Shown in pieces: positions 8,454-35,525 of a DNA stretch of 64,000 nt (position 1 is its first letter; every line of letters begins with the position of its first letter). The position numbers and the translations under genes were made by a program. The notes beneath the pieces were generated by a model. The model did no database searches. It had not been told where the DNA came from and was given only the letters and a program-made list of their open reading frames with translations. This DNA is from Pectobacterium parmentieri (GTDB lineage Bacteria; Pseudomonadota; Gammaproteobacteria; Enterobacterales; Enterobacteriaceae): contig NZ_CP015749.1 in assembly GCF_001742145.1 (NCBI RefSeq), positions 2,604,001 to 2,668,000 on the forward strand. The letters run 5' to 3'.

Positions 8454-8530
8454 GCGCCCTTAGCTCAGTTGGATAGAGCAACGGCCTTCTAAGCCGTAGG
8501 TCACAGGTTCGAGCCCTGTAGGGCGTACCA
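8454..8530 (+). tRNA. argU: tRNA-Arg, anticodon TCT
   Basis: A 77-base cloverleaf: acceptor GCGCCCT pairs with AGGGCGT, the D-arm reads AGCTCAGTTGGATAGAGCA, the anticodon loop is CTTCTAA inside a GGC/GCC stem, the T-arm is ACAGGTTCGAGCCCTGT, and the gene encodes its own CCA. It closely resembles E. coli argU, which decodes the rare AGA codon. Its 3' end is the integration point of the island that follows, in agreement with P4-like integrase habits. Confidence 0.96.
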
Positions 8531-8533
8531 TTT
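8508..8533 (+). other. Left attachment site (attL) in the tRNA 3' end
   Basis: The T-arm and acceptor end, TTCGAGCCCTGTAGGG followed by CGTACCATTT, reappears in degenerate form at 27516-27538. The integrase gene begins 175 bases further on, the standard layout of tRNA-borne islands. Confidence 0.65.
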
Positions 8534-8707: not shown

Positions 8708-9922
8708 ATGCCACTTAATGCTCGACAGATAGAAACCGCCAAGCCACAAGACAAAGAATACAAACTCACTGACGGTGCGGGCCTTTATCTTCTGATAAAG
8801 CCGAATGGAGCCAAATACTGGCGTTTGAAGTACCGCATTGCAGGGAAAGAGAAAAAATTATCTATCGGTGTTTATCCTGATATCTCGCTGGCTGAAGCGA
8901 GACTAAAACGGGAAGAGGCTCGCAAAATCGTCGCCTCAGGTGGCGATCCTAGTGAACAAAAGCAGGTTGAAAGACAGGCTAAAAAAATCAACATTGATAA
9001 CACCTTCAAAGCCATTGCTCTCGAATGGCATGAATATAAGCGTCCTAACTGGTCGAAGGGTTACGCTGAAGACCTGATGGAAGCCTTTGAGAACGATATT
9101 TTCCCAGATATCGGCAAACGTCCTGTTGCTGAAGTTAAGCCGCTGGAGATGCTAACCACTCTACGCAAACTGGAAAAACGCGGCGTACTCGACAAATTGC
9201 GTAAAATCCGCCAAGCCTGTAATCAGGTGTTCCGGTACGCGATTGTTACTGGTCGGGCGGAAAACAATCCAGCATCAGAATTGGCAAGCGCCCTTCCCCC
9301 ACCAAAGGCTACGCACTACCCTCATCTGTTGCCGGATGAACTGCCGGATTTTCTACGCGCTTTATCAATGTATTCGGGGAGTAAGGTCACGCAACTGGCA
9401 ACACGTATCCTGATGCTTACCGGCGTTCGTACTATCGAATTACGACAAGCAGAATGGAAGGAGTTTGATTTTGACAAACAGCTTTGGGAAGTACCGAAAG
9501 AACGCATGAAAATGCGCCGCCCTCACCTCGTTCCTCTCTCTGATCAAGTGATTGATGCGCTGCAACAGCTCCAGGCAATTACCGGGCGCTACAATCTGGT
9601 TTTCCCTGGACGTAACGACATCACCAAACCGATGAGTGAAGCCAGTATTAATCAGGTACTGAAACGAATTGGTTATCACGGCAAAGCAACAGGACACGGC
9701 TTTCGCCACACAATGAGCACCATACTGCACGAACAAGGCTATAACACTGCCTGGATCGAATTGCAGCTTGCTCATGTGGACAAAAATACGATTCGTGGGA
9801 CGTATAACCATGCCCAGTATTTGGAGCAGCGGAGAAGCATGTTGCAGTGGTATGGGGATTTTGTTGATGGGCTGGAGCATGGGGATGTGAAGAAGGTTGT
9901 GGTGATGGGTAAGCGAAAGTAA
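8708..9922 (+). CDS. int: Tyrosine integrase, P4-like
   Basis: A 404-residue tyrosine recombinase that inserts and excises the island at the tRNA. The N-terminal arm-binding domain (DUF4102-like) shows Y-K-L-T-D-G-A-G-L-Y-L and K-Y-W-R-L-K-Y; the SAM-like core domain follows at about 100-180 and the catalytic domain at about 205-390. Catalytic residues visible are Arg in T-G-V-R-T-I-E-L-R, His/Arg in G-H-G-F-R-H-T, and the nucleophile Tyr in R-G-T-Y-N-H-A. It appears intact. A broken relative at 27747 shares a 99-base stretch with 96 identities, while their N-terminal halves are much more different. Confidence 0.95.
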   Translation: MPLNARQIETAKPQDKEYKLTDGAGLYLLIKPNGAKYWRLKYRIAGKEKKLSIGVYPDISLAEARLKREEARKIVASGGDPSEQKQVERQAKKINIDNTFKAIALEWHEYKRPNWSKGYAEDLMEAFENDIFPDIGKRPVAEVKPLEMLTTLRKLEKRGVLDKLRKIRQACNQVFRYAIVTGRAENNPASELASALPPPKATHYPHLLPDELPDFLRALSMYSGSKVTQLATRILMLTGVRTIELRQAEWKEFDFDKQLWEVPKERMKMRRPHLVPLSDQVIDALQQLQAITGRYNLVFPGRNDITKPMSEASINQVLKRIGYHGKATGHGFRHTMSTILHEQGYNTAWIELQLAHVDKNTIRGTYNHAQYLEQRRSMLQWYGDFVDGLEHGDVKKVVVMGKRK

Positions 9923-10369
9923 GAGGATTATCCGGCGTTCTCTGTATGGCCTGCATAAATTCTCGGGATGCCAACGCACGGTCAAAGTCGTGCAGCACCT
10001 GATACGCGCCTTCGATGACTTACCCAGCAACATTGCCTTTATGCGGCGCGCACACATCGGCCACAGTGTCGCCGCACACCGGACTCCAAGATTCGGAGCC
10101 CAGTCTTTGTGGCTGTTCGGTGCGGTTGACACGAAGAGCCTGATTGGCCCTGTTGCCACCGTATTTCCTGAGTTCATCGCCTGCGACGACCATGAGTCCA
10201 CGGACGTGGGCCATCAAGGGGAAAAGCGGCAGGCAGGGGAGCGAGGGAACGATGGAAGCCCGTAAGCCCCGGGCGGCTCGACGCGTAGCTCGTTAGCGCG
10301 ACCGGCCGAACGTCAACATCGGAAAGCAACAGTTAGCCTATCCCGATAATGGACTATAAAGAACTAATA
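9923..10369. other. GC-rich patch with no recognisable intact gene
   Basis: About 450 bases between the integrase and the regulatory palindrome. Open frames exist on both strands (for example 10020-10217 on the minus strand, with A-H-V-R-G-L-M-V-V-A-G-D-E-L), but none has a good ribosome site or a family I recognise. It is richer in G+C than the genes that follow and may be a remnant of an earlier cargo gene. Confidence 0.4.
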
Positions 10370-10386
10370 TGGCTACAATGTAGCCA
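10370..10386. promoter_or_regulatory. Perfect palindromic operator TGGCTAC-AAT-GTAGCCA
   Basis: A 7-3-7 perfect inverted repeat 20 bases upstream of the ribbon-helix-helix gene start at 10407 and just after a possible -10 (TATAAA, 10355-10360). Its size and place suit binding by a dimeric ribbon-helix-helix repressor, most simply the product of the gene it precedes. Confidence 0.65.
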
Positions 10387-10406
10387 CAATATATGAGGTA
10401 CTACAC

Positions 10407-10628
10407 ATGGCAGTCTCAGATGTCGTTCGTGCTCGGATTAGTTCAGAGGTTAGAGCTGAGGAAGTTGCAGTTTTAGCTGAAATGGGATTATCACTCTCAG
10501 ATGTAATGAGAACTTTTCTCATGAAAATAGCGAAGGAAAAATCTATTCCATTTGAGATGGCATTAACAAACAGCTCAGAAGTCCAGACCAAGAAAGAATC
10601 GCCTTCAATTATTTTAATCATCCAGTAG
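10407..10628 (+). CDS. RelB/DinJ-like ribbon-helix-helix protein
   Basis: A 73-residue protein whose first 55 residues follow the DinJ/RelB antitoxin pattern: a short beta strand (V-V-R-A-R-I), a helix, then G-L-S-L-S-D-V-M-R-T-F-L and a terminal P-F-E-M. GAGGT lies 8 bases before the ATG. There is no RelE/YafQ toxin next to it; instead a PP2C phosphatase gene follows after about 20 bases. The toxin-binding tail is short and ends in K-E-S-P-S-I-I-L-I-I-Q. With the palindrome upstream, it may act as an autorepressor of the whole operon rather than as an antitoxin. Loss of a toxin is the alternative. Confidence 0.6.
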   Translation: MAVSDVVRARISSEVRAEEVAVLAEMGLSLSDVMRTFLMKIAKEKSIPFEMALTNSSEVQTKKESPSIILIIQ

Positions 10629-10648
10629 AACTATGGGAGGCGTTTATG

Positions 10649-11806
10649 ATGAATCACAATCAAAAAACCGGCGAGAACACAATGGCTTTAAATTTCTTGC
10701 AAATATCAAACATCATCTCAAGATGGTTGCTCCGAAAGAAAAGCACCACTGGTTTAAGGCGTATCGTTCAACTTGGAGCCGCACTAGCCACAGATGTTGG
10801 AATGGTTAGACAAGAGAATCAAGATCATGTCGCAGCATTGCGTGGATTTGACTCTAATGGCCAAGAATATTCCGTAATAGCTCTCTCTGACGGCATTGGA
10901 GGCATGAAGGATGGGGCGCTTTGCTCCGCCAAAGCTATCGGAACGTTCCTTGGGAAAATTATTGAAATATCAAAAGATAAACATGCTAATAGCCCGGAGC
11001 AATGGTTAAAAGCTGCGGCACTCGAAGCAAATTCAAGAATTCTTCAGGAATACAATGAGACGGGGGGAGCTACGCTCGTTGCCATTCTACATTTAAAGAA
11101 CCAAAACCCATGCTGGCTTAGTGTTGGTGATAGTCGCATATATAGCTGGGATGGAAAATCCGTCTATCAATTATCGAAAGACGACACTATTGCCGGCCAG
11201 CTTGGCAAACAAGACAAAATAGATCAGGAACAAACAAAGCTTCTCCAGTTTATAGGATCAGAAGCTGAGCTAGATATTCATACTGGAGCAATTGAGGCAA
11301 AGGAATCTCGTAATGTCTTGCTAACATCCGATGGGGTTCATTACTTATCTTCGTCGCAAGATTGGTTTGAGAAAATCATCACCAATAGCGGAGATCCTGG
11401 CGTATGCGTAAAAAGGCTAATCGACGTATCTAAATGGTGCGGAGGTCCTGACAATGCATCGGTTGCAGTCATATCCATCTCTCATCAAGCCGAATCAACC
11501 GCGGAATTGGAACAAGACCAACTGGAAATATGGGATTCCTTTGGAGAGTTGCAGATACCTGTATTTTTTACCGATTCTGGAAGCATTGAGAAAAAATTGA
11601 TCGACAGAAATGATCACCAGAAATTAGAAGCAAAAAAAGATTTGCTATCAGAAAGCTTATCTCCTGAAAAAACAGTTCCTCCTGAACCCAAAAAAACAGC
11701 AAAGAAAAGGCAGCGCACACCAAAGAAAAAAATAGAAACCCAAACGAACGAACAAAAACTAGTAAAGGCGCCTGAGCTTTTTGTGGATTTTCCAGATAAA
11801 GACTAA
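10649..11806 (+). CDS. PP2C-family Ser/Thr protein phosphatase
   Basis: A metal-dependent phosphatase that would remove phosphate from targets of the two kinases encoded next. Numbered from the ATG at 10646, the motifs are R-Q-E-N-Q-D-H (55-61), the metal-binding S-D-G-I-G-G (81-86), G-D-S-R (161-164), S-D-G (228-230) and G-P-D-N (267-270), so the active site looks complete. After about residue 280 comes a charged tail with a Lys/Arg-rich cluster (K-K-T-A-K-K-R-Q-R), probably disordered and able to touch nucleic acid. GGGAGG precedes two adjacent ATGs; the second (10649) is better spaced. The gene is AT-rich compared with the nuclease/helicase genes downstream and ends 11 bases before the first kinase. 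Confidence 0.88.
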   Translation: MNHNQKTGENTMALNFLQISNIISRWLLRKKSTTGLRRIVQLGAALATDVGMVRQENQDHVAALRGFDSNGQEYSVIALSDGIGGMKDGALCSAKAIGTFLGKIIEISKDKHANSPEQWLKAAALEANSRILQEYNETGGATLVAILHLKNQNPCWLSVGDSRIYSWDGKSVYQLSKDDTIAGQLGKQDKIDQEQTKLLQFIGSEAELDIHTGAIEAKESRNVLLTSDGVHYLSSSQDWFEKIITNSGDPGVCVKRLIDVSKWCGGPDNASVAVISISHQAESTAELEQDQLEIWDSFGELQIPVFFTDSGSIEKKLIDRNDHQKLEAKKDLLSESLSPEKTVPPEPKKTAKKRQRTPKKKIETQTNEQKLVKAPELFVDFPDKD

Positions 11807-11817
11807 AAGGAGACGAC

Positions 11818-12873
11818 ATGCTTATTGCTGGTCGCTATCAATTCGATGGAAACTACATTTCTGGCGGAATGGCAACAGTTTTGCCATGTCAAGATAAGGT
11901 ATTATCGCGAAATGTGGCAATAAAAATAATGCCAGGAGCTGCAAGTGAGCGACGCATACGAGACGAAGTCTCAGCACTACTAAAAATGCGCTCCAAACAT
12001 GTTGTTCAGATATACGACATCTTCCCCACAGAAAATGAGGGCTTGGCAATTGTCCAAGAATTTATCTCTGGATTTGATTTGTTTGATAAACGATTATTCC
12101 CAAAAACCAAAGGAGAATATCTAAGACTTCTCTGGCAGATGGCTTCTGGATTGGCTGATATCCATGATCTAAAAATAATTCATAGAGATATTAAGCCAAA
12201 CAACATGAAAGTGGATAATGAAGGGGTTTTGAAAATATTCGACTTTGGTCTAGCGCGCGATGAAGGAGAAGGTGCTAGCACGATGGGATTCGTCGGAACG
12301 CCGGGATTTGCAGCTCCTGAACTATATGCAGATAACCCAAAATTCACTGCGGCCGTAGATGTTTATGCGTTTGGTGCCAGCGCACTATATCTTGCAATGG
12401 GCGACCTACCCAGCGATCTGAAATATCGTCCACCAAAGCTTGATGCCAATGATTTTTTCGAAGAAATAAGATTTGATTTACGAGATGAGCTCCGAAGTTC
12501 ATTGAATTCGTGTCTCTCTAAATCTCCCAAAAATCGGCCACCAATGAGGGAGGTAAGAGATTTACTCGCGAAAAATATCCTTCACGACACCCACAGAGCG
12601 CTTGTGGTTTTCGATGGAAAATCGACATTTTTGAATGGAAAAAATCGCTCGGTCAGCTTAAATGCTCATGGTCTTGGTCAGATAAAAATTCAATATGATG
12701 GGTTTGATTTTAGAGCAGTAGAAATTTCAGGCGAAGTTTTTATAAACAATCGAGCGGTAAGCAATAACTTCGCAATTCCGGGTGCTTGTGTGGTAACCCT
12801 TGGGGCGCCAGAGAAAAAAAATCAACGAAAATACATAACATTCGACCTTTCGCATCCGGAGATTGTGCTATGA
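11818..12873 (+). CDS. Ser/Thr protein kinase with C-terminal FHA-like domain
   Basis: A 351-residue soluble Hanks-type kinase. The kinase domain (about 1-255) has a glycine-rich loop I-S-G-G-M-A-T-V, V-A-I-K with K36, H-R-D-I-K-P-N-N (H122, R123, D124), D-F-G (142-144) and A-P-E (166-168), so it should be active. Residues about 258-351 are rich in beta strands and end F-I-N-N-R-A-V-S-N-N and V-V-T-L-G, as in FHA phosphopeptide-binding domains, but the Gly-Arg and Ser-x-x-His signature residues are not evident. No membrane segment is present, unlike PknB-type receptors. The stop overlaps the next start (ATGA), which indicates translational coupling with the second kinase. Confidence 0.87.
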   Translation: MLIAGRYQFDGNYISGGMATVLPCQDKVLSRNVAIKIMPGAASERRIRDEVSALLKMRSKHVVQIYDIFPTENEGLAIVQEFISGFDLFDKRLFPKTKGEYLRLLWQMASGLADIHDLKIIHRDIKPNNMKVDNEGVLKIFDFGLARDEGEGASTMGFVGTPGFAAPELYADNPKFTAAVDVYAFGASALYLAMGDLPSDLKYRPPKLDANDFFEEIRFDLRDELRSSLNSCLSKSPKNRPPMREVRDLLAKNILHDTHRALVVFDGKSTFLNGKNRSVSLNAHGLGQIKIQYDGFDFRAVEISGEVFINNRAVSNNFAIPGACVVTLGAPEKKNQRKYITFDLSHPEIVL

Positions 12874-13943
12874 GTGGAAATTTATTGCCTGGAGCACTGA
12901 TAGGCGGCCGCTATCAAATACTCAATTACCTTGGTGAAGGAGGGATGCAATATGTTTATGTGGCGCGAGACAACCTAACAGAAAGAAATGTTGCTCTAAA
13001 AACCCCAAAAAACAAATCGGCAACAAAGCGATTTCGTCGAAGTGCCGTAGTCGCTGCAAGAGTCAATCATCCAAATGTGGCAAAAACCCTCGACTATATC
13101 AAAGAGAATGAATCAAGATACTTGATTGAGGAGCTGATAGTAGGGAGTGATATGAAGGCTGCTTTACTGGATAAAGCGGAATATCTCGATCCCTATCTGG
13201 TTGCCAAAATACTTCATCATCTTGCCAAGGGTGTTGCAGCAGCCCATCACGCAGGCGTAGTTCATCGTGATTTGAAGCCGACAAATATAATGATATGCGG
13301 GCAATACTCTCTCACAGAATTGAAAGTTACAGACTTTGGTATCGCAAAAATGGCTAGCGAAGAGTTACTACAAGCGGTTGAAGGTGGAGAAGAGAGCTTA
13401 ACTACATCACAAACCGCTGTGGGTGCTCTACCCTACATGGCCCCGGAGGCGATTGAAACCCCCAGAGATGTTACCGAAGCAGCAGACATCTGGTCGATTG
13501 GGGCAATGACGTATCACCTGCTCTGCGGACAGTACCCCTATGGGCAGGGACTTCGGGCGGTTCCAAAAATTGTAGAAGCGGCAGAGCCAGAAATACCGTC
13601 ATTCGTAATGAGAAACCCTCAATTTTCTCCGTTGGCTACAGAAATCATAGAAATAATGCTGTCTTGCCTTAGAAAGAATCCTAACGATCGTCCAACAGCA
13701 GATGATTTGGTTCGGAAATGCAGCCAGCTATGCTATTCCATTTCTGATCGCACTATCGGCGTGGTGAATAATTTTATGCATTCTGCCTATGGGTTTATTA
13801 CAACTGAGCAAGGCAATGTTTTTTATCACAAGGATAGTGTTTACGGAGATTTACCTAACATTGGAGATAAGGTCGTCTTGGCTAGTTATGATGGTGGTTA
13901 TGCACCAAGAGCACTCCCCGTACTGAAACTCTCAAAGAATTAA
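12870..13943 (+). CDS. Ser/Thr protein kinase with C-terminal cold-shock-like domain
   Basis: A 357-residue soluble kinase starting at the ATG that overlaps the previous stop. The kinase domain (about 10-285) shows L-G-E-G-G-M-Q-Y-V, V-A-L-K (K44), H-R-D-L-K-P-T-N (122-129), D-F-G (155-157) and A-P-E (191-193). The last 60 residues read G-V-V-N-N-F then A-Y-G-F-I-T-T-E-Q-G-N-V-F-Y-H, the pattern of a cold-shock OB-fold that binds single-stranded nucleic acid. A kinase joined to such a domain could sense DNA or RNA; that is inference. Only 23 bases with GGGGGAG separate it from the OLD nuclease gene. Confidence 0.88.
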   Translation: MSGNLLPGALIGGRYQILNYLGEGGMQYVYVARDNLTERNVALKTPKNKSATKRFRRSAVVAARVNHPNVAKTLDYIKENESRYLIEELIVGSDMKAALLDKAEYLDPYLVAKILHHLAKGVAAAHHAGVVHRDLKPTNIMICGQYSLTELKVTDFGIAKMASEELLQAVEGGEESLTTSQTAVGALPYMAPEAIETPRDVTEAADIWSIGAMTYHLLCGQYPYGQGLRAVPKIVEAAEPEIPSFVMRNPQFSPLATEIIEIMLSCLRKNPNDRPTADDLVRKCSQLCYSISDRTIGVVNNFMHSAYGFITTEQGNVFYHKDSVYGDLPNIGDKVVLASYDGGYAPRALPVLKLSKN

Positions 13944-13966
13944 ACTTAGATGATTTGGGGGAGCTA

Positions 13967-15718
13967 ATGTATTTGGCACAGTTGACGATTTCGAACTTCA
14001 GAAAGCTACAGAAGGCAGAACTGGAGTTCCAACCCGGCCTAAACGTCTTGGTTGGTGCAAACAACGTTGGAAAGACCGCTGTCGTCGATGCTCTGCGAGC
14101 ACTACTAGCGGGACATGACGAACCCTATCCCCGGCTCAATGTTGACGACGTCCATCGACCTCGTGGAGTGACACCGGCTGGAGACATCATGTTTCAGTAC
14201 GTGTTTCGTGATCTTGACGAAGACAATGAAGCTGACTTTCTTCCAGCGCTGAAAATCGACACAGCTGGCAAGGCCGAGGCACACATCTCCATTCGGTACG
14301 CAGAGGCCGACAAGATCGGCCGGCTACGCGCTAAACGCTGGTGCGGGGATCATGAAGATGTGGGGCTGACCTCAGACATGATGGAGAACCTGCGCGGGGT
14401 GTATTTGCCGCCATTGCGCGATGCATCTCAGAGCCTGAAACCCAGTCGCAGCAGCCAACTGGCCAGACTGTTCCATCTGCTATCCGACGACGCCGGACGC
14501 GATGACATCAATGAAGCACTGAAGAAGCTCGATGAAGAACTGAAAAAACATACGCCGATCACCAACACATATACCGCAATCAAAGGCCTACACGACACCA
14601 TGCTCGGCCCCCAACTTGCACAGCTTCTAGAATTGGGATTGAGCGGAACCGATTTTCAGCGATTGGCCTCGCGCTTATCACTGATGGTTGATGCCTTCGA
14701 AATCGAGCAGAACGGCCTTGGCTTCAACAATCTGATTTTCATGGCGGTTGTTCTGAGCGAACTGGCAAAGAACCCGGAGTCGAGCTATCGTAGCCTCATC
14801 GTCGAGGAGCCCGAAGCACATTTGCATCCCCAACTTCAGGCCGTCTTGTTGAGCTACTTGGAGACGCTGAAGGCCACCGATAGCGAGAAGCCAGTTCAGC
14901 TCTTCGTTACGAGCCATTCACCTAATTTCGCCAGCATCGCCCATATCAACAGCCTGACCTGCCTAGTGGACACAGGTAGCGCAGTCGAAACCTTCTTCCC
15001 CCGCGACATAGACTTTGGGAAAGGAAAGCGAGAAAAGCTGGAGCGCTACCTTGACGTGACACGCGCAGAGATCTTCTTTGCCCGCAGAGTCATTTTTGTC
15101 GAAGGCGCTGCTGAACTGATGTTGGTCAGCCAGTTGGCCGAGAAGGCCGGGTACAAGCTGCGCGAGCATGGCGTCAGCCTGATTAGCGTTGAGGGCCTGA
15201 ACTTTGATTCCTTCCTTCCGCTGTTCGGTGAAAAGGCATTGAAGATCCCCGTATCCGTCATTACCGATGCAGATCCTGTGGATACGCCCGCTGACGGCGA
15301 AAGCGAGTCGCAGGCGCTATATCCGGCCCTCGGTGACGTTGTCAAGGTATCCGACAACACGGCCAAGATGAAGGAAAACGAAGATGCCTTCGTGAAGGTT
15401 TTTCACGGTGTGAAGACCTTGGAGTACGACCTGGCGCTGCACGAAGCCAATCGCTTGGCCATGCTGAGCGCACTCAAGGAGTTTCACCCAAAGATCGGGG
15501 AGACCGTTGAGGCTTCTGTCAATGCGGCAAGCGGCGATGCTGAAAAGGCGCGCATCTTGTTCAGCGGCATGTTTGAACGTAAGCAGAATAATGTCCAGAA
15601 AGGACGATTCGGCCAAGCTTTGGCGCAAGTGTTGGCTGACGGCGGGACTTGTGTCATACCCGAATACATACTGAACGCCATCAAACATGCTTGCCAAAAG
15701 GCACATGCGCGCCCATGA
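13967..15718 (+). CDS. gajA: OLD-family ATPase/TOPRIM nuclease, Gabija GajA-like
   Basis: A 583-residue protein. The N-terminal ABC-type ATPase has Walker A G-A-N-N-V-G-K-T (30-37), and the Walker B region is L-I-V-E-E-P-E-A-H-L-H-P. The C-terminal TOPRIM nuclease shows I-F-V-E-G-A-A-E-L and V-I-T-D-A-D-P. Class 2 OLD proteins paired with a UvrD-like helicase form Gabija, which cuts phage DNA when nucleotides are depleted. The start is the ATG 4 bases after GGGGGAG; an upstream TTG at 13955 is less likely. G+C rises clearly relative to the kinases (hand counts: 25 of 60 at 12961-13020, 34 of 60 at 14461-14520), so this half may have a different origin. It overlaps the helicase gene by 4 bases. 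Confidence 0.87.
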   Translation: MYLAQLTISNFRKLQKAELEFQPGLNVLVGANNVGKTAVVDALRALLAGHDEPYPRLNVDDVHRPRGVTPAGDIMFQYVFRDLDEDNEADFLPALKIDTAGKAEAHISIRYAEADKIGRLRAKRWCGDHEDVGLTSDMMENLRGVYLPPLRDASQSLKPSRSSQLARLFHLLSDDAGRDDINEALKKLDEELKKHTPITNTYTAIKGLHDTMLGPQLAQLLELGLSGTDFQRLASRLSLMVDAFEIEQNGLGFNNLIFMAVVLSELAKNPESSYRSLIVEEPEAHLHPQLQAVLLSYLETLKATDSEKPVQLFVTSHSPNFASIAHINSLTCLVDTGSAVETFFPRDIDFGKGKREKLERYLDVTRAEIFFARRVIFVEGAAELMLVSQLAEKAGYKLREHGVSLISVEGLNFDSFLPLFGEKALKIPVSVITDADPVDTPADGESESQALYPALGDVVKVSDNTAKMKENEDAFVKVFHGVKTLEYDLALHEANRLAMLSALKEFHPKIGETVEASVNAASGDAEKARILFSGMFERKQNNVQKGRFGQALAQVLADGGTCVIPEYILNAIKHACQKAHARP

Positions 15719-17454
15719 CAAAACCTTCCCCTGAGCAGGCGGCTATCATCAACGCGCCACTGGTCCCCATGTCGGTTATCGCGTGCGCTGGAAGCGGAAA
15801 GACACACACGGCAGTACGTCGGTTGGCGGAGATGCGCAGACTGCTTGGTAGCCATCGTGGCCGAGTGGCGCTGCTGTCCTTCTCCAATATCGCTGTGGAC
15901 ACGTTCCGACAAAGCTACCAGTCCTTAGCCCTTGAAATGTCGGTCGGTCCCAGCGGCCACCGCGTTGACATCAATACACTGGACGGTTTCATCACGCGCC
16001 ATGTTCTTCACCCCCATGCCCACCGGACGATGCAAGCAACACAGGCGGCCTTTCTTGTCACTGGTGGCGAGTCATTCCTGAACAGTTTCTCTTTCAAGCC
16101 AGGCAACTACCCCGTTAGCATCATGTCCATGCAGGTCGGATGGCGTGACTCCGGCATCTATTTCTACTACGTGAACAATGACCAAGTCGTAGAGTTGAAC
16201 CACGGTTATGCCTCTGCGATCGTCCATCGCCTGGGGACTGTGGGTGCCTATACACACAATCTTGGCCGTTACTGGTGTTATCGCACACTCAGGGAACAAC
16301 CGGTGATTCTTCGCGCCTTGGCGCGCCGGTATCCGCATATCCTGATTGATGAAGCGCAGGACATTGGCACGCTCCATCAGGCCATTCTTGAACAACTCAT
16401 CAACGCAGGCGTGCAGGTATCGCTCATCGGCGATCCCAACCAAGCCATCTACGAGTTTGCTGGGGCCAATGGAAGATTTTTGTCGCAGTACGGGACACGT
16501 TCTGGCGTCATTGGGTTGAAATTGACCCGCAACTATCGGTCCGTACCGCCAATTCTCGAACTGGCGAATAAGCTCTCAGACCGTAGCGATGATCCAGATC
16601 GCATCATCCCGGAAACGGCACATGGCGCGTACTTCATCCCCTACAGGACGGCTGACCGCGACAACCTAGTACACACATTCCAAGCCACCGTCATCGCGGC
16701 AGGACTGATGCTCGAACGTTCCGCCGTGCTCTGTCGTGGCCGTGACTTTGCCAACAAGTTGGCCGGCAACGAGTCTCCCGCTGGCCAAGGAGCTGTGAAA
16801 GGTTTTGCCCAAGCCGCCATCTCCCGTGACAAGAATCAAGATTATGTCGGGGCCTTCAAGGGCGTTGCCATTTGCATTGCTGGCCTTCTCGTCAATTTGC
16901 CCAAGGGGTGGGTGGCCACTGTCACACATCCCGCGAGCTATCCCGAAGCCCAACCGTTGCGCCGCCTAATTTGGCGCTTCACGCGAAACCCGGATACAGG
17001 ACTACCTTCTGCTTCCTTGCAGGCGGACACCGAATGGCATCCGCTGTTGCTCACCAGGGTAAAGGCATTACTGGCTACGTTGGAGAAGGACCATGGCTTG
17101 AAGCCTGTTAACAACATAGGTATGAAACTCGCCAAGAAAAAATTACCTAATGTGCCGCTTGCCACTACCGCAGATCTGGCGGCATCAAATACAGCCAGAA
17201 TCCGTGTGGACACAGTTCATCAGGCGAAAGGCGAGAACCTGGATGCTGTTCTCTACATGGCAACCAAAGAACACGTCACGGCTATGCTGGATGGAGTGGA
17301 CTCAGAAGTCGGACGCATAGGATACGTCGCGGTGACGCGCGCCAGGGATCTCTTGTGGCTGGGCGTTCCAGCCAATTCGCTATCTGAATTACGGCCTAAA
17401 TTGGTTGCGAACGGTTTTCAAGAGATTGGCATACCAGCCCTTCTCACCACCTAA
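15715..17454 (+). CDS. gajB: UvrD-like superfamily 1 helicase, Gabija GajB-like
   Basis: A 579-residue helicase. Motifs in order: Walker A C-A-G-S-G-K-T (24-30), motif II I-D-E-A-Q-D, motif III L-I-G-D-P-N-Q-A-I-Y-E-F, motif IV R-N-Y-R-S, motif V V-D-T-V-H-Q-A-K-G-E and motif VI V-A-V-T-R-A-R-D. The ATG overlaps the OLD gene stop, the standard GajA-GajB arrangement. In Gabija, GajB is thought to respond to DNA ends or degraded DNA and activate GajA. It is the last gene of the candidate five-gene operon; behind it lies only a decayed nuclease gene. Somewhat longer than the Bacillus GajB I remember (about 490). Confidence 0.87.
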   Translation: MTKPSPEQAAIINAPLVPMSVIACAGSGKTHTAVRRLAEMRRLLGSHRGRVALLSFSNIAVDTFRQSYQSLALEMSVGPSGHRVDINTLDGFITRHVLHPHAHRTMQATQAAFLVTGGESFLNSFSFKPGNYPVSIMSMQVGWRDSGIYFYYVNNDQVVELNHGYASAIVHRLGTVGAYTHNLGRYWCYRTLREQPVILRALARRYPHILIDEAQDIGTLHQAILEQLINAGVQVSLIGDPNQAIYEFAGANGRFLSQYGTRSGVIGLKLTRNYRSVPPILELANKLSDRSDDPDRIIPETAHGAYFIPYRTADRDNLVHTFQATVIAAGLMLERSAVLCRGRDFANKLAGNESPAGQGAVKGFAQAAISRDKNQDYVGAFKGVAICIAGLLVNLPKGWVATVTHPASYPEAQPLRRLIWRFTRNPDTGLPSASLQADTEWHPLLLTRVKALLATLEKDHGLKPVNNIGMKLAKKKLPNVPLATTADLAASNTARIRVDTVHQAKGENLDAVLYMATKEHVTAMLDGVDSEVGRIGYVAVTRARDLLWLGVPANSLSELRPKLVANGFQEIGIPALLTT

Positions 17455-24950: not shown

Positions 24951-25286
24951 ATGCAATCATCGGATACCCCGGAATGGGGATTAAAATGTGCCGTTACGCC
25001 GCGATTCGGAGCCAGGCTGGTGCAGGAAGGTAACCGTCTGCATTATCTGGTAGATCGGGCCAGCTTTATCGGTACTTTTAGCAAGACAGAAGCCCGTAAT
25101 CTGGAGCGCGTCTTCCCTGAGCTGATTAAGCAGTTGGAACAAAAACTGAGAACGGGTGAGCTAAATCCTCACCAACAAGGTTGCATCACACTGCATTGCA
25201 ACGAATGGACCTGTGAAGCCGATACGCTGGGCAGTTTTGGCTACGTGTATATTGTTATTTATCCCTCTTCTGCGGCAGCAGAATAA
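24951..25286 (+). CDS. cbeA: Type IV antitoxin CbeA (YeeU/YfjZ family)
   Basis: A 111-residue antitoxin that bundles MreB and FtsZ filaments and so counters the toxin encoded next without binding it. Family markers are W-G-L-K-C-A-V-T-P-R-F-G-A-R-L-V-Q-E-G, H-Y-L-V-D-R-A, and C-E-A-D-T-L-G-S-F-G-Y-V-Y. AAGGAAACC precedes the ATG. It lies 70 bases before cbtA and 39 after radC. Confidence 0.92.
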   Translation: MQSSDTPEWGLKCAVTPRFGARLVQEGNRLHYLVDRASFIGTFSKTEARNLERVFPELIKQLEQKLRTGELNPHQQGCITLHCNEWTCEADTLGSFGYVYIVIYPSSAAAE

Positions 25287-25356
25287 CCCGCAGCTTCTCT
25301 CCCTCCTTCTGAACATTTTCCCGATTTTATCGACTTAACCTGTAGAGAGTATTCCC

Positions 25357-25677
25357 ATGCAAACAGCACCTGCAATCCCGCCACGGGAGGATAACCCCTG
25401 TCCGTCGCCTATAGCCGTCTGGCAACAACTTCTGACCTACCTGTTGGAAAAGCACTACGGCCTCACGCTGAACGATACGCCGCTCTGTGAGGAAAATGTG
25501 ATTCAGGAGCATATCGATGCTGGCGTCACGTTGGTCAATGCCGTGAATTTTCTGGTGGAAAAATACGAACTGGTGCGTATCGATCGCAACGGCTTTAACT
25601 GGCAGGAGCAATCGCCATTTCTCACTGCCGTTGATGTTCTCCGTGCCAGACGCGCTATCGGCTTGCTCAAAGCATAA
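25357..25677 (+). CDS. cbtA: Type IV toxin CbtA (YkfI/YpjF family)
   Basis: A 106-residue cytoskeleton-binding toxin that blocks FtsZ and MreB polymerisation. Markers are [40 protein letters not shown] and the terminal L-R-A-R-R-A-I-G-L. The pair appears intact and may help keep the island. Confidence 0.92.
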
Positions 25678-26660: not shown

Positions 26661-26688
26661 TTGACATATCCCAATAACACTTTATGCT
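26661..26688 (+). promoter_or_regulatory. Promoter of vapBC
   Basis: TTGACA (26661-26666) and TATGCT (26683-26688) are 16 bases apart and end 35 bases before the vapB start. Confidence 0.65.
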
Positions 26689-26722
26689 AGAGATAGAGCA
26701 AAATTTAGCCAAGGAGATTTCC

Positions 26723-26953
26723 ATGGAAAAAACTACAGTATTTAAAAGCAACCGTAGCCAGGCGGTACGCCTCCCGAAAGCCGTTGCACTGCCCGATGAT
26801 GTTAAGCAGGTTGATATCGTCGCGATTGGTCGCACACGAATCATCACTCCGGCAGGCGAAAGCTGGGACAGTTGGTTCGAAGAGGATGGCGTAACGCCTG
26901 ACTTTATGATCACCAGAGAGCAACCCGATGATCAGATCAGGGAAGATTTCTGA
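26723..26953 (+). CDS. vapB: Antitoxin VapB (AbrB/SpoVT type)
   Basis: A 76-residue antitoxin with the swapped-hairpin DNA-binding fold: T-V-F-K-S-N-R-S-Q-A-V-R-L-P-K at the start and a toxin-binding tail D-S-W-F-E-E-D-G. AAGGAG lies 7 bases before the ATG; the frame from 26684 starts inside the promoter and is rejected. Its TGA overlaps the ATG of vapC. Confidence 0.92.
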   Translation: MEKTTVFKSNRSQAVRLPKAVALPDDVKQVDIVAIGRTRIITPAGESWDSWFEEDGVTPDFMITREQPDDQIREDF

Positions 26954-27357
26954 TGCTGAAATATCTGCTCGATACCAATATCTGTATTTACACCATCAAG
27001 AACAAGCCACAGGAAGTCAGGGACGCTTTCTACCGCCATTACGGGCAGTTTGCTATCAGTGCTATCACGCTGATGGAACTGATCTATGGTGCGGAGAAAT
27101 CGGTAAACCCAGAAAAGAATCTCTCCGTGATTGAAGGTTTTTCTGCTCGTCTGGAAGTGCAAACTTATGGCTTTGACGCTGCCGTACATACCGGGCAAAT
27201 TCGTGCCGAGCTGGCAAGACAAGGAACACCCATCGGCCCGTATGATGCCATGTTAGCGGGTCACGCGCGATCCGCAGGTTTGATACTGGTAACGAACAAT
27301 GTGCGTGAATTTGAGCGAGTGCTTGGGCTACGTGTGGAAAACTGGGTCGGTCAATAA
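26953..27357 (+). CDS. vapC: Toxin VapC (PIN-domain RNase)
   Basis: A 134-residue PIN nuclease; enteric VapC cleaves initiator tRNA. The acidic site is visible as D7 (L-L-D-T-N), E42 (L-M-E-L-I-Y-G) and D98 (G-P-Y-D-A-M), with V-T-N-N-V-R-E-F completing it. It is the last gene before the right attachment site, a typical place for an island-stabilising toxin. Confidence 0.93.
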   Translation: MLKYLLDTNICIYTIKNKPQEVRDAFYRHYGQFAISAITLMELIYGAEKSVNPEKNLSVIEGFSARLEVQTYGFDAAVHTGQIRAELARQGTPIGPYDAMLAGHARSAGLILVTNNVREFERVLGLRVENWVGQ

Positions 27358-27515: not shown

Positions 27516-27538
27516 TTCGAATCCTGTAGGGACCATTT
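27516..27538 (+). other. Degenerate right attachment site (attR)
   Basis: TTCGAATCCTGTAGGG-ACCATTT copies the T-arm and 3' end of the tRNA-Arg gene at 8508-8533 with three bases (CGT) missing and two changes. It marks the right border of the first island. Confidence 0.6.
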
Positions 27539-27548
27539 CGAAGTAAAC

Positions 27549-27572
27549 AGACGTCAATCGACGTCTTTTTTT
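27549..27572 (+). terminator. Strong rho-independent terminator beyond attR
   Basis: AGACGTC-AATC-GACGTCT followed by TTTTTTTA. It may be the original terminator of the tRNA-Arg gene, pushed 19 kb away by the island. Confidence 0.8.
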
Positions 27573-27746
27573 ATGCCTAAAATTCAGTGAATTAGCTATA
27601 AATTCGCTGTTTTCAGTCAACCAGACTCTACCGACATCTACGTACATCAAGTAGGATTTGTTGGTATAAGTGATGGTACAAGCCCGTTCAATGAATTCTT
27701 ATACCCACAGCCAGCGTATGCCGACACCTCAATATAGAGATCGGCT

Positions 27747-28181
27747 ATGCCACTCACCGATGTAAAAGTCAGAAGTGCCAAACCAGAAGACAAGGCTTAT
27801 AAACTTACCGATGGTGAAGGGATGCATCTGATGGTCCATCCTAATGGTTCAAAATACTGGCGTCTGCAATACCGCTTCGCTGGCAAACAGAAAACTCTGG
27901 CGCTTGGGGTATATCCTGAAATTACCCTGTCTGAAGCCCGGCAACGCCGTGATGAAGCCAAACGCCAGATTGCAACCGGTACAGACCCCAGCGAACAGAA
28001 GAAGGTGGATAAACAACTACGCCAAACGCTCGTTGATAACACCTTTAAAGCTATCGCATTGGAATGGCGTGAATATAAGCGTCCTTCCCCCACCAAAGGC
28101 TACGCACTACCCTCACCTGCTGCCTGATGAACTGCCGGATTTTCTACGCGCTTTATCAATGTATTCGGGGAGTAAGGTCAC
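27747..28181 (+). pseudogene. Internally deleted P4-like integrase
   Basis: An open frame of 126 codons starts normally with the arm-binding domain (Y-K-L-T-D-G-E-G-M-H-L-M-V and K-Y-W-R-L-Q-Y) but at E-Y-K-R-P jumps to a later part of the gene, out of frame, and stops at 28127. The segment 28083-28181 matches 9292-9390 of the intact integrase at 96 of 99 bases. The join lies in AAGCGTCCT, and the intact gene has AAGCGTCCT and AAGCGCCCT at the two corresponding places, so a microhomology deletion of about 240 bases is the simplest cause. The rest of the catalytic domain is absent. Confidence 0.85.
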
Positions 28182-28310
28182 ACAGCAGGCTCATACGGCC
28201 CGTTGCGTGCGGTTTAACTACACCGGTATTCTTCACTAGTGCAGTGATGCATAGGAAAAATAACAGGAGCACAAGAATTTATAGCCTTTTGATACTCTTA
28301 CCGGTATCAA

Positions 28311-28715
28311 TTAACGTCTTCTTAACACTAGCCTTGAGTCGCTTTTTTCTACTACTTTATATCGGCGAAGTTTCGTTAAAGCGCCTACACCGCCTGCTGC
28401 GATAGCAATATAGATAGCTGCACTTGTTGCCGAACTACCGAGGATAGCCGCTGCGCCACCTGCAGAGAATGCAGCAGTTGTGCCAGTAGCTGGAGCACTG
28501 GTGCCTCCGGTAGCTAATGTTGCCATGGCTGCAACTACCGCAATACCGATGGCTGCAAATGCTATAGCCCATGCAACTTTCCCAGTCGCATGAATTTTCA
28601 CCGTAGTTTTAGCTAAACTCCCCTCAATAGTGATCGTATCTTGCTCTTCTTTAATAGCTTTACCCAGCTCTTTAGGTGTTGTTATCACATTATCTTTGGT
28701 ACCAGAAGTGCTCAT
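28311..28715 (-). CDS. Small membrane protein with glycine/alanine-rich segments
   Basis: A 134-residue protein of unknown family. A polar N-terminal third (T-T-P-K-E-L-G-K-A-I-K-E-E-Q-D-T-I) is followed by two hydrophobic segments (about 50-68 and 95-113) rich in Gly, Ala and Ser, and a basic tail (L-R-R-Y-K-V-V-E-K-S). AGGAGG lies right before the ATG. The pattern resembles hydrophobic island-borne proteins of possible toxin or immunity type, but this is not established. Confidence 0.55.
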   Translation of the reverse strand: MSTSGTKDNVITTPKELGKAIKEEQDTITIEGSLAKTTVKIHATGKVAWAIAFAAIGIAVVAAMATLATGGTSAPATGTTAAFSAGGAAAILGSSATSAAIYIAIAAGGVGALTKLRRYKVVEKSDSRLVLRRR

Positions 28716-29174
28716 TGTTCCTCCTGCGTAGACTACGCGTTGTGAGACCCAGTTTAATTAGTCGCCCTCATTTAACAGTAGGCCGGCTGCATTCTTTTAG
28801 GATGTTGTTGCCAATTTTTGCTCTACGTAGCGCAGCATGCTCTATGGCCTCCGGGATAACACTACTGATATGACCGCAGCGTCGGTCTTGGTTGCTGAGC
28901 GGTTCAGGGCCTATGTATTTTGGCATGAATTTATAATGTCTGGCAGTAGTGACGACCAGAACTTATTTGCTGGAGTAGTCAAATAAAGCTGAGTTGGATA
29001 GGTAGGCTGGGGGCTGAAGGAGTCTGACGCTGAGTGTGGCTTAAGTCTTGTGCTCTCTGTATATGCGATTAACAGCATCCGCTTTTGGAGCGAAAGCTGG
29101 ATTTAATGCATATTTATCACAGGCCAGTTTCTGCATTAATCAATAGCGAGACGCTTGATGGAGACTCATAGCGC
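28716..29174. other. Intergenic region without a recognisable gene
   Basis: About 460 bases in the accessory zone. Only short frames with no ribosome sites are visible. Probably decayed sequence. Confidence 0.45.
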
Positions 29175-29495
29175 TCACTGATTACCAAATTTTTTTTCAT
29201 AAACATCCAAATGATTTTTAAAGTATTTTCTATAATCATCAGCGGAACTTATTAAGATTGTTACCTCAATAAACGTTTCATCCAGCTCTTCTGAAAAATC
29301 TTCTATCGCGATGAATTTATTGGCGATTTCTTCATTTGTCCCTTTAATAAATAGTTTACAGCCAGTTTTAACAACATCTGGCGAATAAAACTGCGTGGGT
29401 TTAAGGGCTCCATGCACAAATCCCATAGGGGGATCACCAAACTCTAATTCAGAAACGCCAATAATTTTGTCTTCTTTTCTAATCTCAAACGCCAC
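29175..29495 (-). CDS. Hypothetical acidic protein, 106 residues
   Basis: A small soluble acidic protein (F-G-D-P-P-M-G-F-V-H-G and D-F-S-E-E-L-D-E-T-F-I-E-V). Low G+C and small acidic character are common among immunity proteins of polymorphic toxins, but no toxin gene is nearby, so no function is assigned. AGGAG lies 7 bases before the ATG. Confidence 0.5.
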   Translation of the reverse strand: MAFEIRKEDKIIGVSELEFGDPPMGFVHGALKPTQFYSPDVVKTGCKLFIKGTNEEIANKFIAIEDFSEELDETFIEVTILISSADDYRKYFKNHLDVYEKKFGNQ

Positions 29496-29871
29496 GTAAT
29501 TACTCCTGAGTTATTGATTCTTGTTGGCGATAAACCTACTTATAAACCAAGGGCCATCAGGCCTGCTATGAGCGAAAGCAGACGCTTCCGCCCGTTTGGT
29601 CATTCAATATATATGAGATACCGACTTAGTCATGGTTATTAAAAAAGTCTCACAAATCAGTAGACGAACCGATCATCAGTATTCCCAGCTAATCCGAGGC
29701 TAACATGCCAGTACGCAAACTTTATCGTAAATAGCCTACTGAAGTGACCTCCTCTGTATGAGAAGGCCTTTTTTAACGTCGAAGGAGGAAGTGAAATATT
29801 TATTAATTACGGCTGGTTATCTGGTCATACGGCAGTTTTTAAAAAAGATAACTATCAGAAATCCAGTTTCA
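29496..29871. other. Intergenic region upstream of a hypothetical gene and downstream of the J-protein gene
   Basis: About 375 bases. A weak hairpin (GACCTCCTCTGTATGAGAAG then GCCTTTTTT) near 29748-29774 may terminate + strand transcripts. No gene seen. Confidence 0.4.
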
Positions 29872-31167
29872 CTATTTGAATAATTTTAGTAACTCGGAGA
29901 GAACGCCTACACAAATAATGAAATAAAGTATCGCCCATATAGCCGAAAACCAAGTGAAATTCATCCACTCAATCATTTTCCATGGACTGGAAAAAATCCT
30001 GCTCATGATAATACCGGGCTTGCGGATAAAAGGAACGCCTTTCGGCCAGGCTACCCAGAACATAATACAAAGTGCCAGAACAGCCAGTAGCGAGACGAGT
30101 GCCATTGAGCCATGTCCGGAGGGAGGGATAGTGATCACGGCGGCAAAAAAAAGCCCGCCGAAAAACAACTGAATGACCGCGAGTGAGAACATAAACTCCA
30201 TGAAAAGGAAGCAACTAAGCCATCGAGGCTTGCCACTAAATCCCATCATGAGAATATCGCTGAGATACAGATAAAATACGACGATGACGATAGCCGTTAT
30301 GCTGGCAGCATGATGAATATCCGGTTGCTGGAGTAACGATTTAAATGCCATCCCCCAGAACACTAACAGAAATATTCCCTGCCAACTGAGCGTCAGGCGT
30401 GTCTGGCGCAGAAACTCCAGCATCACGGGATTGAGCCGTTCAGCAATCTCGGGATAGTAAGACGTAAGATGTTGAGCCTGGTAAACGAGCGCCTGCAGAA
30501 GCCCTGGCGCAAGACGGATCCAGAATGGCACGTGTTTACGATTGCTTTTCAGTAGCCGAACCGCCGTTTTCGCTAGCAGCGTACCATGTGTTTCCTCAGT
30601 TGACATCTGCCGCCAGGCGCGATTAACTTCCGTCTCCCGCAAACGCTGCTGGATAGCGTGTTGTATCGGCTCGGGGATGATATGACTGTAATCATATTCA
30701 TCTATCCCCCACGTCAGTAGTCCAGAGACACGCTCAAGAAGCCCTTCCGTGAGCCCTTGCTCTTCAGATAGCGCCGCAGCTAGATGCTGATGAAATTGCT
30801 GCTGCTGAAGCAGACTCCCTTGCGAAGCGATTTTTGTCCATAATCGTTTCATCGCCACGATCCCAACCATCTCAGTGTTGACCAACTGATGTGCCAACGC
30901 CTGCATCTCTTCAGGGGTATAGAACGTTTTCGCCAGAGGGAACGCGACCTCGACGACAGGAGGCTGGGATTGGGGGGGAATATCAATGAGTATTGGAGTA
31001 GCGCCGCCCCGTACCTGCTGTTTGGCCGAATCAAAGGCTTCGCGTAGTCGCTGATATCCTTCAGGATCTCTGTCAGGGCGATGTGTTTTGAGCTGTTGGG
31101 CGTAGGCGCGACGTATTTCTGCTTCATCGTGTGTAGGGGCTATCCCCAGAACTTGCCAGATATTCAC
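29872..31167 (-). CDS. Membrane-anchored J-domain protein, DjlB/DjlC type
   Basis: A 431-residue co-chaperone partner for the Hsp70 encoded just upstream. The J-domain occupies the first 50 residues (W-Q-V-L-G-I-A-P-T-H-D-E-A-E-I-R-R-A-Y). The loop that normally reads H-P-D here reads H29-R-P-D, so the histidine is displaced by one residue. The C-terminal half has several membrane segments (about 262-425). It overlaps the hscC-like gene by 4 bases (ATGA), which mirrors the E. coli pairing of HscC with DjlB/DjlC. Confidence 0.8.
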   Translation of the reverse strand: MNIWQVLGIAPTHDEAEIRRAYAQQLKTHRPDRDPEGYQRLREAFDSAKQQVRGGATPILIDIPPQSQPPVVEVAFPLAKTFYTPEEMQALAHQLVNTEMVGIVAMKRLWTKIASQGSLLQQQQFHQHLAAALSEEQGLTEGLLERVSGLLTWGIDEYDYSHIIPEPIQHAIQQRLRETEVNRAWRQMSTEETHGTLLAKTAVRLLKSNRKHVPFWIRLAPGLLQALVYQAQHLTSYYPEIAERLNPVMLEFLRQTRLTLSWQGIFLLVFWGMAFKSLLQQPDIHHAASITAIVIVVFYLYLSDILMMGFSGKPRWLSCFLFMEFMFSLAVIQLFFGGLFFAAVITIPPSGHGSMALVSLLAVLALCIMFWVAWPKGVPFIRKPGIIMSRIFSSPWKMIEWMNFTWFSAIWAILYFIICVGVLSELLKLFK

Positions 31168-32864: not shown

Positions 32865-33321
32865 TGTTATTCCTTAGATCGTGAAGTCAGATAATAAATA
32901 CCGCGTCCATGTATACTTTAGGGCTATGATTGATGCGTCTGTTTATTCTGCCTCTTCTTACTTAGGCATGGATAATTGCCTCACGAACTAGCGACGATTC
33001 GAATTCTGTTACTACAAAGCGCATCCAAGAGCGACAGCAAACACGTCTTTGAGCTTGCCCCCTCTCTGCGGATAATATCAAATCACTCGATGCTGAAATA
33101 GACTCAGATTTGAGGACATCACTTAGTCCACGGTTCTTAAGATACTCTTTGGTAGGGGCTATATGTTTTCGCTGTATCCGCACGCATGAGATTGTGAACT
33201 GAGAGCGCCGCCCGATGATCCAAAGCCGCTCTGCGGGGGAAGGTATTATGACTCATGTTCGCAGGACATAAGCCTAAGGGGCTCATCGCCCCTTAGTTAT
33301 GCATTTTATCGCTCAAAGTCG
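32865..33321. other. Gap upstream of the hscC-like gene
   Basis: About 450 bases. A minus-strand frame at 32962-33183 (73 codons, R-I-Q-R-K-H-I-A-P-T-K-E-Y-L-K-N-R-G) lacks a ribosome site and is not recognised. Promoter of the chaperone operon should lie near 32870-32950. Confidence 0.4.
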
Positions 33322-33660
33322 TTATTTCCCTGAGCAAGTAATATAACCCGTCAGATTGTTTTTATCACAGCTCGCGTAATATTCTGGTTTGCTGTTGTAT
33401 TGCTTAATTGTCTCACCGGTACATTCTCCGTCCTTTAACCCATCAATAACCTTGATATTAGAATCACGTTCCACCGCATCCTTGTAGGCCTTAATAACGC
33501 CTGCGCTACGCGATATCGACGCCCCAGCATCAATAGCATCGCGAGCTCCGCACACCCCTACAGCTTGATCATGGAGATCCATCTCGGTAAAGGGCTGTGT
33601 TGCCGTTGCGGCGTATGTGAATCCCGAAAACACTAACATCAGCAACAATGATTTTTTCAT
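33322..33660 (-). CDS. Small secreted protein with four cysteines
   Basis: A 112-residue protein with a signal peptide (M-K-K-S-L-L-L-M-L-V-F-S-G-F-T-Y-A-A) and a mature part with four cysteines (V-C-G, E-C-T, S-C-D, T-C-S) likely forming two disulfides. AAGGAATTGAATT precedes the ATG. Family not recognised; periplasmic or extracellular location is expected. Confidence 0.62.
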   Translation of the reverse strand: MKKSLLLMLVFSGFTYAATATQPFTEMDLHDQAVGVCGARDAIDAGASISRSAGVIKAYKDAVERDSNIKVIDGLKDGECTGETIKQYNSKPEYYASCDKNNLTGYITCSGK

Positions 33661-34066
33661 AATTCAATTCCTTGTTATTAAGAGGCTTTAGCTGAAAGCT
33701 AATGGTCGAAGGGGAAAACGCCCCAACTTAAGGCTGTGGTGGAATTAGTATCCTATTTCGTCTTTGCACTAACGCAATGGAGCTCTGACTTACGGCTCAT
33801 AATTAGTAAACCTAACGTGTCATAACTATCAGCGTAAGCCCCCCAGGTAAACCGAGCCAAATGCTCTGATTTACTTAGGGGTCGGTGAGGTACAACACAC
33901 CATTACCCATACTGACATCGTATTTATAGTGTAAGGGCCCGCATGAAAAAAGGAAAACATCCCACGTTAAACTTATTTTTTAAGCAGCCAGAAGTTAACA
34001 GGCGGCGTTGAGCGAGGAGCCAACCTTAATGTTTCACACCCATAGACTAATTCGTAATCGTTTGAA
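33661..34066. other. Intergenic region, no gene seen
   Basis: About 400 bases between a secreted-protein gene and a decayed transporter gene. No frame or structure stands out. Confidence 0.45.
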
Positions 34067-34375: not shown

Positions 34376-34415
34376 GTCGGCGGCTCTTCTTTCAAGAAGA
34401 TCGTGATACTTACAC

Positions 34416-34881: not shown

Positions 34882-34943
34882 AGTAGGGCCTCCTGGGGAA
34901 ATTAGATAGACCAGTAGGGTTAGCGCCTCTGAAGCTCAGGTCC

Positions 34944-35513: not shown

Positions 35514-35525
35514 GAGCTTAATGTG

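Follow-up and report, generated by a model that had tools for sequence, protein, structure and literature searches.

In the Gabija defence system, the GajAB proteins cleave invader DNA. A mechanistically different defence is represented by KKP (kinase-kinase-phosphatase), a tripartite toxin-antitoxin and anti-phage module described by Guo et al. 2024 (PMC11341870). According to the main text of that paper, KKP consists of PfpC, a PP2C phosphatase, PfkB, a kinase with an FHA domain, and PfkA, a kinase with a cold-shock domain (CSD) and a GFI/A motif; the phosphatase gene comes first and the two kinase genes follow. More than 1200 clusters were reported, over 90% of them in prophages, and a length filter of 900-1300 bp was applied to each gene. 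The two kinases together are toxic, with many host proteins, DNA-replication proteins among them, as targets, and PfpC neutralises them. Protection against phages was shown for five KKP modules, that of MPAO1 and four others; the T4 protein Gp59 binds one PfpC with modest inhibition (PMC11341870). Here we analyse a 64,000-nt stretch of Pectobacterium parmentieri DNA (the window; G000:C1:2604001-2668000, from a source genome that is one contig of 5.03 Mb), in which a PP2C gene, two kinase genes and a Gabija pair stand in a row. We conclude that they very probably represent two self-sufficient anti-phage modules, KKP and Gabija, arranged in tandem as cargo of a CP4-type tRNA-Arg island.

Identification of the phosphatase-kinase-kinase trio

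Six genes follow one another on the plus strand of the window: relB, the PP2C phosphatase gene, kinase 1, kinase 2, gajA and gajB, with an inverted repeat in front. Seventeen nucleotides separate the relB stop at 10628 from the phosphatase ATG at 10646, 11 nt lie between the phosphatase and kinase 1, and a gap of 23 nt leads from the kinase 2 stop to the gajA ATG. ATGA overlaps join kinase 1 to kinase 2 at 12870-12873 and gajA to gajB at 15715-15718. The gene order, common strand, two ATGA overlaps and gaps of about 10-25 bases given in the initial annotation of this sequence are all confirmed.

The three genes behind relB are adjacent and co-directional, and their lengths of 1161, 1056 and 1074 bp all fall inside the KKP filter. 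The first (10646-11806, plus strand) encodes a PfpC-like PP2C phosphatase, by homology the putative KKP antitoxin, which matches PF13672 (PP2C_2) at 35.3 bits against a cut-off of 24 bits. The second (11818-12873, plus strand; PF00069, 130.5 bits) encodes a PfkB-like Ser/Thr kinase with a weakly FHA-like C-terminal beta domain, and the third (12870-13943, plus strand; PF00069, 162 bits) a PfkA-like Ser/Thr kinase whose C-terminal cold-shock domain carries a GFI motif at residues 308-310. The PP2C protein and the two Hanks-type kinases noted initially are therefore upheld by these scores. The GGM, HRD and DFG kinase motifs and the PP2C metal-site motifs were found in the window proteins. All nine PP2C motif residues checked are invariant in 45/45 orthologues and the checked catalytic residues of kinase 1 in 48/48, while those of kinase 2 are nearly invariant across 48 orthologues.

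The cold-shock domain was recognised by profile comparison: a profile of the kinase 2 C-terminal domain aligns with CspB along positions 10-69 of 70 (E 5.5e-6). In the AF2 model of kinase 2 (pLDDT, the predicted local distance difference test score, 92.2) this domain has five strands modelled with high confidence. Searched one by one, 15/48 orthologues have a Pfam CSD match and 13/48 an S1-like one; kinase 2 of the window itself has an S1-like match alone, at 22 bits and under the 25.2 cut-off. The C-terminal beta domain of kinase 1 is likewise confident in the AF2 model (pLDDT 92.6). Its alignment with an FHA profile by hhalign reached a probability of 58% in local mode (P 1e-4, 41 columns) and 31% in global mode, the comparison profile being built on 20/30 loci and including at least one wrong-strand row (L164); a control, the cold-shock piece against FHA, gave P 0.99 and was run in global mode only. 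The best PDB match of the kinase 1 C-terminal domain profile was a ribosomal protein (E 0.68). When the complete kinase models were searched with Foldseek, the 50 matches listed out of 2000 were kinases and said nothing on the C-terminal domains. Taken together, the phosphatase-kinase-kinase trio matches the KKP module, of which it would be a new locus.

In the orthologue alignment, the C-terminal tail of the phosphatase is also conserved beyond the core, with a WDxFGELQ motif and a final PQLxIxF-like motif. This conserved tail is perhaps a docking motif for the kinases.

The trio and Gabija as probable separate modules

The genes downstream of the trio are gajA (13967-15718, plus strand), encoding an OLD-family ATPase-TOPRIM nuclease (PADLOC GajA, 991.5 bits; PF20469, PF13175), and the adjoining gajB (15715-17454, plus strand), encoding a UvrD-like helicase (PADLOC GajB, 898.6 bits; PF00580/PF13361). 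GajA combines an OLD-like TOPRIM with an AAA_15 domain, and GajB has the UvrD-helicase domain. PADLOC matches cover residues 1-580 of 583 in GajA and 1-573 of 579 in GajB; judged by this coverage, gajAB is full-length Gabija, as had been proposed from the OLD and UvrD-like genes.

How often the trio and Gabija occur together was assessed on a set of 102 loci with a kinase 2 match above 200 bits. The set combines 79 distinct genome loci (the best 80 of 107 relatives in the kinase 2 profile search), the first 14 of the 35 viral loci in the profile search, these 14 being orthologues with the neighbouring genes, a further eight loci drawn from records of plasmids, phages and E. coli, and the window itself; it contains near-identical copies (e.g. 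L003 and L012). Downstream of kinase 2, 84 of the 101 other loci extend for 4 kb or more, and 72 of these also reach 6 kb or more upstream of its start. The phosphatase and kinase 1 lie upstream of kinase 2 in 94/102 loci (93/101 without the window), and in 88 all three are strong. The eight loci lacking a PP2C match include five that start at a record edge (L042, L046, L072, L073 and L094) and three with a kinase 1 fragment only (L026, L078 and L084); at six further loci one part of the trio is weak or broken. At the 97 loci with a readable kinase 1/kinase 2 junction, the two genes could overlap by 4 nt in 89. A Gabija homologue accompanies kinase 2 at just one of the 101 other loci, in a BLASTP search with four GajA and four GajB references against mechanically chosen open reading frames (ORFs), which distant relatives can escape. 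That locus, from Acidovorax (L024, 12893-16857), has a divergent Gabija, with about 30% identity for GajA, lying 1.8 kb away from KKP and on the other strand. Since the phosphatase and kinase 1 precede kinase 2 almost throughout and Gabija is found so rarely, the trio appears to be autonomous. This gives good support to the initial suggestion that a second, kinase-based defence might have been linked to Gabija.

Gabija, in turn, occurs apart from the trio. A 6.8-kb DNA query spanning the trio and Gabija returned 25 plasmid records, and among the 20 listed all matches start at gajA or later. In the three of these plasmid records that were inspected, the upstream neighbours of Gabija are Qat genes, BREX-linked genes and a RusA-type gene, in each case without the trio. 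Kinase 2 was found at E 1e-40 in 10 plasmid records, which share no member with the 20 listed for Gabija. Because the plasmid matches begin at gajA or later and the upstream neighbours differ, Gabija too appears autonomous. Within the class, window GajA was found at E 1e-60 in 1/369 genomes, the source genome.

The two modules also differ in base composition. The G+C content at third codon positions (GC3) is 35% in relB, 37% in the phosphatase gene, 34% in kinase 1 and 38% in kinase 2, against 63% in gajA and 61% in gajB. Given this break at the junction and the occurrence of each module without the other, the trio and gajAB most likely have different histories.

For kinase 1, 1222 relatives were counted at E <=1e-40, one of which, on a contig of Achromobacter xylosoxidans (P0002), is 85% identical. 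A near-identical trio is present in 14/5426 E. coli genomes and, by a more sensitive search, in 18/5426, the extra four being about 71% identical. Across the genus, the kinase 2 profile finds 1/25 genomes, the source genome. At 11/102 loci the trio lies beside the P2 replication gene A and portal gene Q, gene A being directly upstream at a distance of 120-306 nt in 10 of these 11, some of which are near-identical copies. The slot between gpA and gpQ of P2 is a documented defence hotspot, known from old/tin and from tested defences (PMC9122126, PMC9519451). A constant fourth component of the trio was considered and rejected, as neighbour clustering yielded integrases (20/102 loci), P2 genes and sporadic families.

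Three other neighbourhoods caught our attention. Homologues of the ABC-three-component (ABC-3C) system lie beside KKP at 4/102 loci, from Rhizobium, Agrobacterium, Devosia and Variovorax. All three components are present at L004 (12299-16002), L005 (12302-16005) and L060 (11254-16234), and two at L030 (3787-7612). L004 and L005 are near-identical and have ABC-3C on the same strand as KKP; at L060 it is on the opposite strand. The KKP-ABC-3C neighbourhood may be recurrent and deserve attention. In an E. coli NDM2 plasmid record with P2-like phage genes (L003, 613-1778), the gene for the KKP phosphatase is broken into two ORFs while the two kinase genes are uninterrupted; intact copies exist in other genomes. 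In Planktothrix phage PaV-LD (L014, 4971-6925), a related PP2C gene is followed by a single annotated kinase.

The RelB-like gene at the head

The string begins with a gene (10407-10628, plus strand) for a 73-aa protein that had been described as a ribbon-helix-helix protein. The gene is there, and its product can be assigned more precisely to the RelB/DinJ antitoxin family, with matches to PF04221 at 53.7 bits and to TIGR02384 at 51.5 bits (cut-off 45.65 bits). It is solitary, since the 17 nt left before the phosphatase gene leave no room for a toxin gene behind it.

In front of relB lies the palindrome noticed initially, which proved to be real. Its 13-nt arms, 10365-10377 (TAATATGGCTACA) and 10379-10391 (TGTAGCCACAATA), are 85% complementary and 1 nt apart, and 15 nt separate its end from the relB start. 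An inverted-repeat search found an equally good repeat in 6/2000 Markov-chain shuffles of the 141-nt stretch upstream of relB. This element (10365-10391, no strand assigned) is a putative operator, probably of the RelB-like repressor. It overlaps the second hexamer of a weak promoter-like site (10374-10379); the promoter scan gave fewer sites than in shuffles, so that a promoter-like hexamer by itself is no evidence. From this anatomy, the solitary RelB-like protein and the palindrome probably autoregulate the head promoter.

The idea that RelB is a usual partner of KKP was rejected, none having been found upstream of the trio at the other loci. Among the 102 loci a RelB homologue precedes the trio in the window only, the one other match (L032) being downstream. 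At other KKP loci, none of 10 small upstream ORFs tested has an antitoxin domain, these ORFs being mechanical and possibly spurious.

The integrative island

The six genes belong to an element inserted at a tRNA-Arg gene (TCT; 8454-8530, plus strand; ARAGORN) which, with its upstream flank, is conserved in 25/25 genomes of the genus, the source genome included. A tyrosine integrase gene (8708-9922, plus strand; PF00589/PF13356/PF22022) stands next to it. The 3' end of the tRNA forms a left att-like repeat (8508-8533, plus strand), of which an imperfect direct repeat recurs at 27516-27538 (plus strand), the probable end of the island. The two align with a 3-nt gap, because of which a pattern search allowing 3 mismatches had missed the pair. 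The right repeat was located by alignment with the left one and by comparison with element-free congeners. In three congeners (G017, G003 and G006) the tRNA runs directly into the sequence found at 27.5 kb in the window, which supports both the placement of the repeats and an island of about 19 kb.

Other island genes encode AlpA, a YagK/YfjJ-like protein (below cut-off), a GTPase, RadC and DUF4942, along with a CbeA/CbtA pair (24951-25677) and a MazE-like/PIN-domain pair (26684-27357). We take this inventory to be CP4-type, a label that follows the Pfam name of AlpA. The congener comparison covered eight stretches of at most 19.8 kb each. In three of them (G018, G001 and G013) the flank is the same and the integrase at this tRNA is 96-97% identical; the integrase of G003 is 87% identical. 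By tblastn, relB, the trio and gajAB are absent from 8/8 stretches. That three congeners share integrase, tRNA and flank while their stretches carry neither module makes island cargo the best reading of KKP and Gabija.

Behind the right att repeat, another variable stretch (27516-35600) includes the remnant of an integrase at 27844-28239. It contains a gene for an Hsp70-like protein (31164-32864) beside one for a 431-aa protein without a Pfam match (29872-31167).

How the locus may work, and alternative explanations

By analogy with the published modules (PMC11341870), and given the homology and motifs described above, the two kinases would jointly act as a growth-arresting toxin that phosphorylates many host proteins, and the PfpC-like phosphatase would counteract them. 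A phage protein inhibiting the phosphatase would release the kinases, and the infected cell would stop growing. Gabija, with its GajA nuclease and GajB helicase, would be a second module. Transcription may read on across the 23-nt gap into gajAB, giving a shared transcript.

Several points weigh against this two-module interpretation. Pfam sees no FHA domain in kinase 1 and its orthologues (0/48 at E 0.01, and 0/30 C-terminal pieces at E 10), whereas the KKP paper reports one on PfkB (PMC11341870). The trio was matched to KKP by the published description of a module whose assayed representatives are those of MPAO1 Pf6, Shewanella W3-18-1, V. tasmaniensis, E. coli 15EC039 and S. Typhi CT18. PADLOC-DB has no match for the phosphatase and assigns the kinases to other systems (PD-T4-6, MAD6 and PglW), the matched stretches lying inside the kinase domain; membership in PD-T4-6 or MADS was rejected, as these matches reflect the kinase domain and leave the phosphatase without one. 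A PADLOC search (E 1e-20) on 110/111 KKP neighbours gave 108 families, the top one, PDC-S02, with 3 members, and 41 on 110/115 control ORFs; these counts are of families rather than genes, the control stretches also carry defence genes, and the neighbour ORFs are mechanical and possibly spurious. Finally, the 23-nt spacing leaves a functional link between KKP and Gabija possible.

A stricter form of the tandem explanation is juxtaposition with neither shared expression nor interaction, gajAB having a promoter of its own inside the kinase 2 gene. Both modules do occur independently and their compositions differ, as this explanation would have it, but the spacing is very tight and no plus-strand promoter-like site was seen near the 3' end of kinase 2, in a scan overall not above chance. 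We regard it as possible, if rather unlikely.

A more elaborate explanation is a transcriptional circuit, in which RelB represses a shared promoter through the palindrome and kinases freed when a phage inhibits the phosphatase phosphorylate RelB, which then quits its operator, raising the expression of both KKP and Gabija. It draws on the position of relB, which heads the string together with the palindrome, lacks a toxin and shares the GC3 of the trio, and on two published precedents. In P. aeruginosa, KKP kinases are reported to phosphorylate T5 in the DNA-binding domain of PfiA, a type II antitoxin whose phosphomimetic form no longer binds its operator or represses (PMC13048266). CapK/CapS is a published case of a kinase relieving the repressor of an immune operon (PMC13373217). 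However, PfiA is not a RelB, phosphorylation of RelB and its binding to the palindrome are hypothetical here, and, as described above, RelB precedes the trio at no other locus and small upstream ORFs elsewhere showed no antitoxin domain. We therefore hold this circuit to be improbable. The same low probability attaches to its extension into a three-layer switch, in which freed kinases would arrest growth, phosphorylate RelB and derepress the operon, with Gabija as a second, nuclease-based line. Were it true, a phospho-controlled repressor of the antitoxin type would place the expression of an unrelated immune effector under the influence of a kinase toxin-antitoxin system. The arrangement of RelB and palindrome makes it testable whether KKP kinases control transcription of a neighbouring immune system.

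Another idea, raised in the initial annotation as gating of the nuclease by reversible phosphorylation, is that the kinases phosphorylate GajA or GajB and the phosphatase reverses this, so that the nuclease is armed only once KKP is triggered. The common strand, the 23-nt gap, the lack of a terminator-like site between kinase 2 and gajA (in scans not above chance) and the many host targets of KKP kinases, DNA-replication proteins included (PMC11341870), would suit such gating, but we rejected it as the leading explanation and consider it very improbable, because Gabija is so rare beside KKP-type kinases, close Gabija relatives lack the trio, the composition breaks at the junction, and each module occurs elsewhere without the other. 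Occurrence in one lineage only had been named beforehand as speaking against gating, and the search for the order PP2C-STK-STK-OLD-UvrD, expected to show whether it recurs across genera, found it in the window only among the 102 loci. Any action of the kinases on GajA or GajB is unsupported, no sign of it having been found in the analysis.

Comparison with known systems

Several defence proteins resemble parts of the trio. PD-T4-6, MAD6, PglW and Stk2 share its Hanks-type Ser/Thr kinase domains. We know of no PP2C-kinase-kinase set in the first three. Stk2 is described as a single kinase (PMC11341870). The TerY-P triad was considered as well and rejected. CapK/CapS is similar in that an immune operon is preceded by a kinase together with a repressor that binds DNA (PMC13373217); it differs from the window, where the kinases are of the Hanks type and are accompanied by PP2C and RelB, and where such control is only hypothetical.

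The likeness to KKP extends further. It comprises the PP2C-kinase-kinase order, the gene lengths, the GGM, HRD and DFG motifs, and a cold-shock domain with GFI on the distal kinase. Location on a mobile element, typical of KKP if not universal, fits as well: the window trio lies in a tRNA-Arg island with an integrase, AlpA, RadC and CbtA/CbeA, and relatives of the trio lie in P2-like prophages. Two features set it apart, namely the weakly detectable FHA domain on the proximal kinase, and the neighbours, a solitary RelB-like gene in front and Gabija behind. Gabija itself is typical in that its OLD ATPase-TOPRIM protein and its UvrD-like helicase are both full-length and their genes overlap; it differs in lying directly downstream of KKP, 23 nt from the kinase 2 stop.

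The initial annotation knew of no named system with this full set. For the full set this holds: the KKP-Gabija combination was not found in the literature searched, where no paper pairs 'Gabija' with 'PP2C', and the main text of the KKP paper mentions neither Gabija nor RelB (PMC11341870). However, KKP had been overlooked, and both halves of the set have names. The apparent novelty of the kinase and phosphatase genes is thereby removed, as they match a KKP locus rather than a new Gabija accessory. The components are known; what is new is the KKP-Gabija tandem and the solitary RelB at its head. This combination of RelB, KKP and Gabija, in which two defences are stacked, is rare and perhaps unique, and it offers a clear case of two mechanistically different systems placed one behind the other on the same strand of a small integrative island.

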